A stretch of 64,000 bases of DNA. Origin: Lachnospiraceae bacterium (GTDB lineage Bacteria; Bacillota; Clostridia; Lachnospirales; Lachnospiraceae). A program made the translations under genes and the position numbers. Under the pieces are notes generated by a model, which saw nothing but the letters and a program-made list of their open reading frames with translations, was not told the origin of the DNA and did not search any database. The stretch lies in contig JAQXLY010000028.1 in assembly GCA_029012365.1 (NCBI GenBank), positions 62,001 to 126,000 of the forward strand, in the 5' to 3' direction. Every line of letters starts with the position of its first letter. Within the stretch, counting starts at the first letter, position 1. Below are positions 1,391 through 63,770 of the stretch, piece by piece.

Positions 1391-1493
1391 CTGCACCTCA
1401 TCCCTTTCATTTTTGGTAATAGCCTACACATTATTAGTGTAACAAATTCATTACAAAAATACAATTATCTTATATTGCGCAGCAGAGCATTCT

Positions 1494-1693
1494 ATAACAT
1501 TTCAGCCTTACTTATACGGGATAAGTTGTTGCGAAGGAGTATTCTAAAGAGAACCATAAGGCAACGTCAGTACTTAGCGAGGTGGTTTCGAGCTTAGTAC
1601 TGCTGCGTTGCTGCATGAGCGAGAGCGGGTTCTCTTTATGGAAACGCTGATCCGTCGCCACAACGATTACACACTAAAAGGGTGCACTGTTAC
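1494..1693 (+). mobile_element. MITE-like palindromic element, copy 1
   Basis: About 200 bp. Ends ATAACATTTCAG.. / ..CACTGTTAC. Flanked by AGCATTCT (1486-1493) and AGCATTTT (1694-1701), a 7/8 direct repeat. Interior closely matches the reverse complement of 28766-28960. Confidence 0.8.
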
Positions 1694-1704
1694 AGCATTT
1701 TGCC

Positions 1705-28006: not shown

Positions 28007-28654
28007 TTATAACTCCTTCTCTACGACTACCACATCTCCACGCACATCGACAATCCGGACTGTGCTTCCGCTCGGAATCGCCTGATTTCCTTCGGTAATC
28101 GCATCAACCTCCGTAAAACGTGAAGCACTGCTTAAAGTTACCTTTCCGCCGCTTTCCCCCGACGGCAAGACTGTCAGATATACCTGCGCCGTCTCACCAA
28201 TCACCGACTTCAGCCGGAAAGTACCGTTCTCCGCAAGCCGTGCCATCAGTTGTAACAGCTTTGCAATAACATACATCATAGCCACACCGCACACCAGACC
28301 GATAAGTAATGCTGCCGCATCCGGCATTCCGGTCTTTACGCAGACCAGTGCAACCCATGAAAAGGTTGTTAAAAACGCAACTACGCCCTGCACGGTAAAC
28401 AGCTTTAGTGTACCTGCATCTGCCGGACTGAATTCACCTGCATCCACATCTGCCAAATCCCCTGCAGAAATGTCCTCAGGCATATCCATGTCAAGCCCTG
28501 ATGTATCACTTGGATTAAAATCACCGCCGCCTGCCCCGTCTCCGAATCCCATTATCACCAATACCGTCTGTAAAATCAGAATCAGTGTCGCAGGGATTGC
28601 AATACAATACAGTACCTTTTGCAGGACACTAAGAGCTTCCCACCAAGCATTCAT
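28007..28654 (-). CDS. NfeD-like membrane protein
   Basis: TM helices and C-terminal OB-fold-like segment (GKVTLSS...SGSTVRIVDVRGDVVVVEKEL); partner of the downstream flotillin. Confidence 0.75.
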   Translation of the reverse strand: MNAWWEALSVLQKVLYCIAIPATLILILQTVLVIMGFGDGAGGGDFNPSDTSGLDMDMPEDISAGDLADVDAGEFSPADAGTLKLFTVQGVVAFLTTFSWVALVCVKTGMPDAAALLIGLVCGVAMMYVIAKLLQLMARLAENGTFRLKSVIGETAQVYLTVLPSGESGGKVTLSSASRFTEVDAITEGNQAIPSGSTVRIVDVRGDVVVVEKEL

Positions 28655-28765
28655 ATTCCTTCCCTCCTTCTCCCCTCGTGAAGCATCGGGTAAATTTTAT
28701 TTACTTTATAATATCATGATCGTATAAAATTGTCAATGCTTTTTTGCTATTACTTTCCTGTTTAT

Positions 28766-28960
28766 GTAACAATTCAGTCTTCCGGTGTGTAATCGTTGTG
28801 GCGGCATAGTATTCTAAAGGGAACCCGCTCTCGCTCATGCGGCAACGTAGCAGTACTAAGCTCGAGACCACCTCGCTAAGTACTGACGTTGCCTTATGGT
28901 TCTCTTTAGAATACTATGCCGCCACAACTTATACTGCATAAGGAAGTCTGAACCTGTTAC
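28766..28960 (-). mobile_element. MITE-like palindromic element, copy 2
   Basis: 195 bp. Termini GTAACAATTCAGTCTTCC / GGAAGTCTGAACCTGTTAC. Perfect 8-bp flanking repeat CTGTTTAT (28758-28765 and 28961-28968). Internal 25-bp perfect inverted repeat GTTGTGGCGGCATAGTATTCTAAAG (28795-28819 / 28904-28928). Confidence 0.88.
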
Positions 28961-29061
28961 CTGTTTATCATTTTTTGTATTTATAATTTACTTGCTTTTT
29001 TGTTCTTTTATGCTATAATATACGTAAATTCTATTTACCTTTATTTACAGGAGGTGATTTT

Positions 29062-29628
29062 ATGGACTCCAAACTTCTCGGACAACGCATCAAAGAAGCG
29101 CGTCTGGCAAAAAAGATGACGCAGGCAGAGGTTGTCGGTTCGTTTATTACAAGAAATATGCTCAGTCAGATTGAAAGCGGCAATGCCGTTCCTTCCATGA
29201 AGACCTTAACCTATCTGGCAAAGGTACTGGAGCTGCCGCCGTCCGTTTTACTCCCGGATACTTCGGAAGATGCCGCCTGTTCTTCCGAACAAAGCGACAT
29301 CCGTCTGCCCGCTTTTGTTTCCGAAGACGCTTCTGTTTTTTATCATGCCAAGGAAGCCTATCTTTCCGGAAACAATAACATCGCTTACGAAGCTCTTTCT
29401 TCTATCCCGGAGACTTCCGTCCTGACCGATGAAGCACAGGCATTGTTTGCCAGAGTTGCGCTCCGCATGGCAGAAGCCTGTCACAACGCAGGAAACCATA
29501 CAGAAGCGCTGGAGTATGCAAAAGCTGCTGCCACCGCCGCTGCCAAAGGTATCTACGCTTCCCTGGAGGTAAAGTCCCAAGCCCTGCTTCTCCTGTCTGA
29601 TGCCGCAGCAAAGCTGGCAGAGATATAA
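29062..29628 (+). CDS. XRE-family transcriptional regulator with helical C-terminus
   Basis: N-terminal HTH LGQRIKEARLAKKMTQAEVVGSFITRNMLSQIESGNAVPSMKTLTYLAKVL. Confidence 0.88.
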   Translation: MDSKLLGQRIKEARLAKKMTQAEVVGSFITRNMLSQIESGNAVPSMKTLTYLAKVLELPPSVLLPDTSEDAACSSEQSDIRLPAFVSEDASVFYHAKEAYLSGNNNIAYEALSSIPETSVLTDEAQALFARVALRMAEACHNAGNHTEALEYAKAAATAAAKGIYASLEVKSQALLLLSDAAAKLAEI

Positions 29629-61073: not shown

Positions 61074-63770
61074 TTAACAATTCCCTGCAAGGTGTGCAAG
61101 GCGTTCTTCCACCTGTGCCATCATTGCGGTGTACTTTTCAAGCTTTGCCCGCTCCTCCGCAAGCTTAGCCTCCGGTGCCTTGTTCACAAAGTTCGGATTG
61201 GAAAGCATACCGTTAACACGCTTTAACTCACCCTCCAGTCTTGTCTTTTCCTTCCGAAGTCGTTCGATTTCCTTCTCAATATCTACCAAATCCGCAAACG
61301 GAATGTAAACAGTTGCGTTCGGAATTACCGCAGATACCGCATCGGCATCGATTCCTTCTTTCCCTGACTGAATCTTTACTTCACTAGCACCGCCGAGAGC
61401 CGCAAAAAATACCCTGCTGTTCTCAAAAATGTTACGAACACTGTCCTGTTCGGAAACTACATATACCATTGCCTTTCTGCTCGGCGGAACATTCATCTCG
61501 CTTCGAACGTTGCGGATGCCCTTTACCGCTTCCTTAATAAGCTCTACCGCTTCTTCCTCCGCGGCAAAGGAGTAGCTTTCGCTGTACTCCGGCCAAGAGG
61601 AAATCATAATGGATTCCTCTGCGGTATTGCCTTCCATTTCCTTTAAGGTACAGAAGATTTCTTCGGTTACAAACGGCATATACGGATGTAACAGCTTCAA
61701 CGCATCCGTTAATACATGACGAAGCGTCCAGATAGCCGCTGCCTTGCTCTTTTCATCGGAACCGTAAAGACGGGGCTTCACCATCTCAATGTACCAGTCG
61801 CAGAACTCTTCCCAGATAAAATCATAAATCTTCTGCGCCGCGATACCCATCTCAAACTTGTCTAAGTTCTCGGTTACTTCCCTGCAAAGTGTATTCGCCT
61901 TGGAAAGAATCCACTTATCCGCATCCGCAAGGCTGCCTGCCTCCGCTGCCTCTGCCCTTGCCGCGGCACCGTTTCCTGCCGCCTCCATCTGCTGCATATT
62001 CATCATAATGAAACGGCTTGCATTCCATACCTTGTTGGCGAAGTTTCTGCTTGCCTCCACACGTTCCATATAAAAACGCATATCATTTCCCGGTGCATTT
62101 CCCGTAATCAGGGTGAAACGAAGCGCATCTGCACCGTACTTATCAATAATTTCAAGCGGGTCGATTCCGTTTCCTAAAGACTTACTCATCTTTCTGCCCT
62201 GGGAGTCACGTACCAGACCGTGGAACAGTACCGTCTTAAACGGCTTCTCCTTCATCTGCTCATATCCCGAAAAAATCATACGGATAACCCAGAAGAAGAT
62301 AATGTCATAACCGGTTACGAGGACGTCCGTCGGATAGAAATATTTCAAATCCTCTGTCATCTCCGGCCAACCAAGCGTTGAGAACGGCCACAGCGCGGAA
62401 GAAAACCATGTATCCAGAGTATCCGGATCCTGTGTCAAATGGTCGTGTCCGCACTTCGGACAAATCTTTGGTGCATCCGCGGTCTTTGCTACGGTAATTT
62501 CCCCACACTTGTCACAATAATAAGCCGGAATACGATGTCCCCACCAGAGCTGTCTGGAAATACACCAGTCACGGATGTTATCGGTCCAGTTAAAGTACGT
62601 CTTTTCCATACGCTCCGGAACCAAAGTAATTTCTTTATTCTTAACCGCCTCTACTGCCGGCTTGATTAGCTCATCCATCCTTACAAACCACTGCTGTTTG
62701 ATTAACGGCTCTACCGTAGTCTTACAACGGTCGTGAGTACCTACATTATGGGAATAGTCTTCGATACGAACCAAAAGTCCCATTTCATCAAGCTCTTTTA
62801 CAATCTGCTTTCTTGCCTCATAGCGATCCATACCGGCAAACTTACCGCCTGCCGCATTAATCGTTGCGTCATCGTTCATAATATTGATTTCCGGCAGATT
62901 GTGGCGCTTTCCCACCTCAAAATCGTTCGGGTCGTGTGCCGGAGTAATCTTTACTACACCTGTACCGAAATCCATTTCAACATACTCATCCGCAATAATC
63001 GGAATCTCGCGGTCTACAAACGGAACCTTAACGGTCTTTCCTACCAGATGGGCATATCGCTCATCCTTCGGGTTGACAGCGACAGCGGTATCACCAAGCA
63101 TAGTTTCAGGACGTGTCGTAGCAAACTCCAGAAATTCCTGCGTTCCCACTACCGGATACTTGATGTGCCAGAAATGACCTGCCTGCTCCTCATATTCTAC
63201 CTCCGCGTCGGAAATGGAGGTCTTACAGACCGGACACCAGTTGACAATACGGGAGCCCTTATAAATCATCTTCTTTTCATAGAGCTTTACAAATACTTCC
63301 TCAACTGCCTTGTTACAGCCCTCATCCATAGTAAAGCGCTCTCTGTCCCAGTCACAGGAGGAGCCGAGCTTCTTTAACTGGCTGATAATACGCCCGCCGT
63401 ATTCCTTTTTCCATTCCCACGCACGCTTTAAAAAGCCCTCACGGCCAAGGTCATGCTTGTCGATGCCCTCTTTCTTCATCTGCTCGATTATCTTAACTTC
63501 CGTTGCGATGCTTGCATGGTCCGTACCCGGCTGCCACAATGCATTATAGCCCTGCATTCTCTTATAACGGATCAAAATATCCTGCATCGTATTATCCAGT
63601 GCATGTCCCATATGAAGCTGACCGGTAATGTTTGGCGGCGGAATCACAATGGTAAACGGCTTCTTTGTTTCATCCGGCTCGGCATGAAAATACTTCTTAT
63701 CCAGCCACTTTGCATACAATCTGTCCTCTATGTCCTTCGGATCATAGGTCTTTGCTAATTCTTTCTGCAT
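61074..63770 (-). CDS. valS: Valyl-tRNA synthetase
   Basis: [36 protein letters not shown]..., [13 protein letters not shown]; start [16 protein letters not shown]. Confidence 0.96.

Follow-up and report, generated by a model that had tools for sequence, protein, structure and literature searches.

Probable IS66-type miniature inverted-repeat transposable elements carrying a conserved structured core in a Lachnospiraceae genome

What are the two palindromic segments of about 200 bp that lie in inverse orientation in a 64,000-nucleotide stretch of a Lachnospiraceae genome, and how did they reach their sites? The stretch (positions 62001 to 126000 of contig C28 of genome G000) is referred to as the window. 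The initial annotation had read the segments as near-identical copies of a miniature inverted-repeat transposable element (MITE). Their positions and inverse orientation were confirmed, but they are not near-identical, since BLASTN gave an identity of 83-86% (E=2e-50), copy 1 being the more degraded of the two. No reading frame of 80 amino acids or more was found inside copy 1 or copy 2. The analysis indicates, with a probability of roughly 0.88, that the segments are copies of an IS66-type MITE with ISBst12-like ends, presumably mobilised by an IS66-family DDE transposase that leaves an 8-bp duplication of the target.

The GTAACA-type ends described earlier are present in both copies and recur across genomes. 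The termini of copy 1 are ATAACATTTCAG and, as the reverse complement, GTAACAGTGCACCC, and those of copy 2 are GTAACAATTCAGTC and, as the reverse complement, GTAACAGGTTCAG. The 8-bp direct repeats reported at both sites also held and recur across genomes, with a match at seven of eight positions around copy 1 and at all eight around copy 2. The nested inverted repeats are likewise real: copy 2 folds into one long hairpin at -107 kcal/mol, and the value for copy 1 is -66 kcal/mol. A whole-genome search of G000 revealed about 25 copies and smaller remnants. Approximately 12 copies are full length and about 12 more run into contig ends, indicating that the repeat breaks the assembly; the MITE thus explains contig breaks in assemblies of this kind. 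Similarity among the copies ends at GTAACAGTTCAGCC...GGCTGAACTGTTAC, and these terminal inverted repeats were found in many copies, being degraded in copy 1. The flanking octamers vary by site, and they match at seven or eight of eight bases in most full-length copies. The element is short and gene-less, has terminal inverted repeats and 8-bp duplications, and occurs in many copies at unrelated sites. These features support the MITE reading that had been proposed, and the family extends beyond the host genome. Scars without the core described below and solo ends were also present in G000.

The exact 14-bp consensus end GTAACAGTTCAGCC was detected in 83 of 397 Lachnospiraceae genomes, with a maximum of 156 exact sites (77+79) in one genome, whereas the reversed pattern, used as a control, gave one site in all 397. 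Octamers matching at 7-8 bases flanked 34 of 77 distinct elements, compared with none of 77 after re-pairing; since the 77 include chance pairings of adjacent ends, 34 is a lower bound. Perfect 8-bp duplications flank MITEs in several genomes. The elements range from 28 to 289 bp, and in any one genome they are of uniform length (163-165 bp in G012; 165, 137 and 100 bp in G316), while their interiors are mostly unrelated from genome to genome. Elements of 28-42 bp at three loci (L405, L415 and L421), which are barely two ends back to back, keep perfect 8-bp duplications, and the simplest reading is that their palindromic interior was deleted. In viral contigs the end pattern occurred just once per contig, which is the chance level, and it had no match in plasmid records; in the literature it appeared only in two papers, both unrelated. 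No pairs of exact ends 1-5 kb apart were seen among the places listed. The 14-bp end can serve as a handle for annotating this MITE superfamily.

A likely partner, an insertion sequence with the same ends such as the initial annotation had suggested, came from a different Lachnospiraceae genome. In a set of 41 genomes, almost all of them with many MITE ends, G399 carries divergent IS66 transposases that adjoin GTAACAGTTCAGCC. Three of its contigs (C62, C41 and C31) are involved: the right half, with the end of the transposase, lies on two of them (99.6% alike), and the third starts with the left end, which has the same 14 bp. The implied element, pieced from these contigs, is about 1817 bp long with a single frame of 487 codons. 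A 355-residue part of the transposase matched the Pfam family DDE_Tnp_IS66 (E=3.6e-19), and the NCBIfam IS66 model matched at E=1.9e-38, yet under the cut-off of that model. In genomes G334 and G347, an identical 12-bp end lies just past related transposases. Other members of the subfamily carry the ends GTTACTGTTCAG, GTAACTATTCAG or GTTACAGTTCAC, one with GTTACAGTTCAC being flanked by a perfect 8-bp duplication. The IS66-like elements L462, L466, L468 and L470 belong to the same subfamily and have such related ends; unlike the MITE, they carry a transposase, and those measured are 1.8-2.3 kb long, L470 having 1984 bp and a perfect 8-bp duplication. These results indicate a transposase family for a MITE superfamily present in about one-fifth of the sampled Lachnospiraceae genomes.

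Canonical IS66 was rejected as the partner in favour of the divergent subgroup, because in the first 30 IS66 loci its ends, where found, were GTAAGCG or GTAAGTA. Canonical IS66 elements of Lachnospiraceae combine these ends with 8-bp duplications (e.g. L242 and L283), and canonical ends have been described as starting with GTAAGCG (PMC11946415). A closer counterpart is ISDge4 of Deinococcus geothermalis, an element of the ISBst12 group that has been published as active (PMC12898284). It has a single frame and the end GTAACTGCTCAGCA, and its target duplication is 8 bp long. Its end equals GTAACAGTTCAGCC at 11 of 14 positions, the duplication has the same length, and both ISDge4 and the G399 element have a single transposase frame (449 amino acids and 487 codons, respectively). 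Unlike IS66/ISBst12 elements, the window element is gene-less and about 200 bp long. Nevertheless, its ends begin with GTAA, it is flanked by 8-bp duplications, and an IS66 element, pieced from contigs, has identical ends; accordingly, it is probably of the IS66/ISBst12 type. As judged from the sequences, an IS66-family DDE transposase with GTAACAGTTCAGCC ends would recognise the MITE ends, move the MITE and leave the 8-bp target duplication.

Several observations weigh against this reading. No match to the IS66 transposase (PF03050) was found in G000, a genome that is 92% complete, and the presence of IS66 does not track the number of MITEs, the two genomes richest in ends, G062 and G107, having no IS66 match. 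The G399 contigs break inside the partner element, and a target duplication of its own was not seen. In several G000 copies the octamers match imperfectly or not at all, which old insertions would be expected to show. Sharing of flanks with relatives, which had been named as a sign against transposition, was found in part: several copies, including copy 1, occupy the same site in the sister species G001, and one of them also in G009. No empty orthologous site of a window copy was present among the relatives' loci compared. Since many other copies lie at unrelated sites with different octamers, the sharing is explained by inheritance, and part of the spread predates the species. Because no IS66 transposase was found in G000, the family appears to be immobile there now, and its copies look stranded.

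The interior of the G000 element is a separate conserved module; this, and a family far wider than one genome, go beyond the initial account. At least 119 contigs contain the tip of this core, YTTAGCGAGGTNNTNTYGAGCTTAG; almost all of them bear the label of Lachnospiraceae or relatives, with one Bacteroides record among them. Viral contigs did not contain it. At about 130 loci the tip is part of a larger fold comprising outer arms, a mismatched stem and a GC-GNRA-GC hairpin. The fold is a three-way junction with long variable arms, in which the tip hairpin contains T.T and tandem G.A/A.G mismatches and a 2-nt bulge; the tetraloop was GNRA in 125 of 131 cases. Among 53 diverse copies, double compensatory changes were observed in 24 of 30 pairs, and the covariation score was 0.457, compared with 0.166 when shuffled and at most 0.127 when slid. 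Both the compensatory changes and the GNRA loop suggest an RNA fold, and the loop makes RNA likelier than DNA as the folded molecule. A covariance model detected the core in nine of the ten genomes compared within the genus (G000 had 28, MITE copies counted). Across the order, with at most 16 candidates scored per genome, it was detected in 23 of 246 genomes, and each of the 23 belongs to Lachnospiraceae. Rfam 15 gave no match above the gathering score in the window and none for the core or the short tip hairpins; over copy 2, only a plant microRNA family matched (30.2 bits against a gathering score of 171). The literature matches listed for the tip motif were all in unrelated papers.

Outside the MITE the core is also found, lacking IS66 ends, in intergenic positions that are fixed and orthologous. 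One such position is the spacer that separates a leuS-like gene (a name based on its reading rather than on a family search) from the following gene; seven of the ten genomes compared within the genus have the core there. In one of the seven, G006, it is interrupted by another insertion. In G008 only remnants of the arms are left, and a short spacer takes the place of the core in G002 and G009. The arms there clearly differ between G000 and the sister species G001, each being self-complementary. Similarly, in 119 copies the arms outside the core had a median score of 18.5 against their own partner and 6 against the arms of other copies. The core is thus a well-supported fold, absent from Rfam, whose arms change fast yet stay paired. 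Template switching during replication has been proposed to create and maintain RNA hairpins (PMC8794818), and mutation of this kind, acting in long palindromes, may contribute to the lasting complementarity of the arms. Alternatively, the fold may be under selection, and the two processes may act together; the arms offer a natural test between selection for RNA structure and templated, palindrome-correcting mutation. The genes adjoining core copies show no constant orientation, which makes a single simple cis-regulatory role for all copies unlikely. The core is a module of its own, which may have been captured by the MITE or be shared with it. Tentatively, and at slightly less than even odds, it represents a structured RNA family that is new and specific to Lachnospiraceae. 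Such a family would have spread in two forms, fixed intergenic copies and cargo of IS66-type MITEs, and would have a putative fold-keeping function such as RNA processing, stability or protein binding.

Some further features of the core were observed. At L049, L096, L137, L161, L129, L078, L153 and L160 the tip hairpin stands by itself, in the form of short scattered hairpins of the GAACACTTAGCGAGG...CGAGCTTAGTGTGAA type; these are often in tandem and in a few cases lie directly behind a -10-like box. By a strict test, 49 of 118 tips lacked the larger core. Inverted pairs of cores about 200-600 bp apart were seen on two contigs each of G322 (C22 and C8) and G293 (C3 and C28). A second palindromic repeat, ...GCTCCGCAGGATGCGCA...CAGAGTTTCGCAAGCGAAACTCT..., probably a second MITE family, is inserted within the core at L546 (G006) and also at L189, L192 and L208. 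One fixed core copy adjoins a T-box leader (100.9 bits, L029:1719-1918, minus strand).

The strong covariation of the core, its restriction to this family among the genomes of the order and its occurrence without IS66 ends at fixed sites would also fit a family of structured RNAs, or of regulatory hairpins, that was dispersed as functional RNA copies, the IS66-like ends being incidental. This is unlikely, however, because most sampled MITEs of other genomes have the same ends and 8-bp duplications without the core, and the unit amplified in G000 is the whole 195 bp including the ends; mobility therefore follows the ends and not the core. Palindromic, intergenic repeats in many copies, with inverted core pairs about 200 bp apart in G322, also recall REP/REPIN-type palindromes, which a tyrosine (HUH) transposase mobilises in single-stranded form. 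To our knowledge, neither the target duplications nor the terminal inverted repeats observed here are expected of HUH transposases, and identical ends are carried by an IS66-family DDE transposase, although no search was aimed at a linked HUH gene; we consider such an origin very improbable. Finally, two similar inverted segments inside one 64-kb window could suggest a segmental duplication, or a recombination event, that involved a single locus of the genome. With about 25 copies, similarity that stops at the ends, unrelated flanks and different octamers, this can practically be dismissed, in line with the argument made earlier for transposition rather than duplication.

As a probable IS66-type MITE, the element resembles MITEPsy1 (PMC3189936), which is also short and gene-less with terminal inverted repeats and a target duplication, and is presumed to be mobilised in trans by an insertion sequence with similar ends. 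The duplication is 8 bp here and 4 bp in MITEPsy1, the relation is to IS66 here and possibly to IS5 there, and the present family has a conserved structured core and interiors unrelated between genomes. RU-1, RU-2 and RU-3 of enterobacteria (PMC2759123), compared by description only, are likewise MITE-like mobile intergenic repeats of about 100-170 bp at many sites. They belong to another taxon, and here the ends, the duplications and a candidate transposase were identified.

Table 1. Positions of the two MITE copies, their cores and their flanking octamers in the window.
Feature	Position	Strand	Basis
Left target-site duplication of copy 1, AGCATTCT	1486..1493	.	flanking octamer
MITE copy 1, 200 bp, degraded ends	1494..1693	+	sequence comparison, ends, octamers
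Three-way-junction core of copy 1	1543..1641 (G000:C28:63543-63641)	+	model R1, 97.0 bits, E=3.7e-20
Right target-site duplication of copy 1, AGCATTTT, 7/8	1694..1701	.	flanking octamer
Left target-site duplication of copy 2, CTGTTTAT	28758..28765	.	flanking octamer
MITE copy 2, 195 bp, opposite in orientation to copy 1	28766..28960	-	sequence comparison, ends, octamers
Three-way-junction core of copy 2	28812..28910 (G000:C28:90812-90910)	-	model R1, 99.5 bits, E=8.7e-21
Right target-site duplication of copy 2, CTGTTTAT, 8/8	28961..28968	.	flanking octamer

Copy 2 is flanked by divergent reading frames at 28007-28654 (minus strand) and 29062-29628 (plus strand). At two other loci of G000 and G001 (L223:3139-3230 and L226), a MITE end lies directly 5' of a methyltransferase-like frame and seems to provide an AAAGGAG-like ribosome site, and a second end follows the frame in direct orientation.
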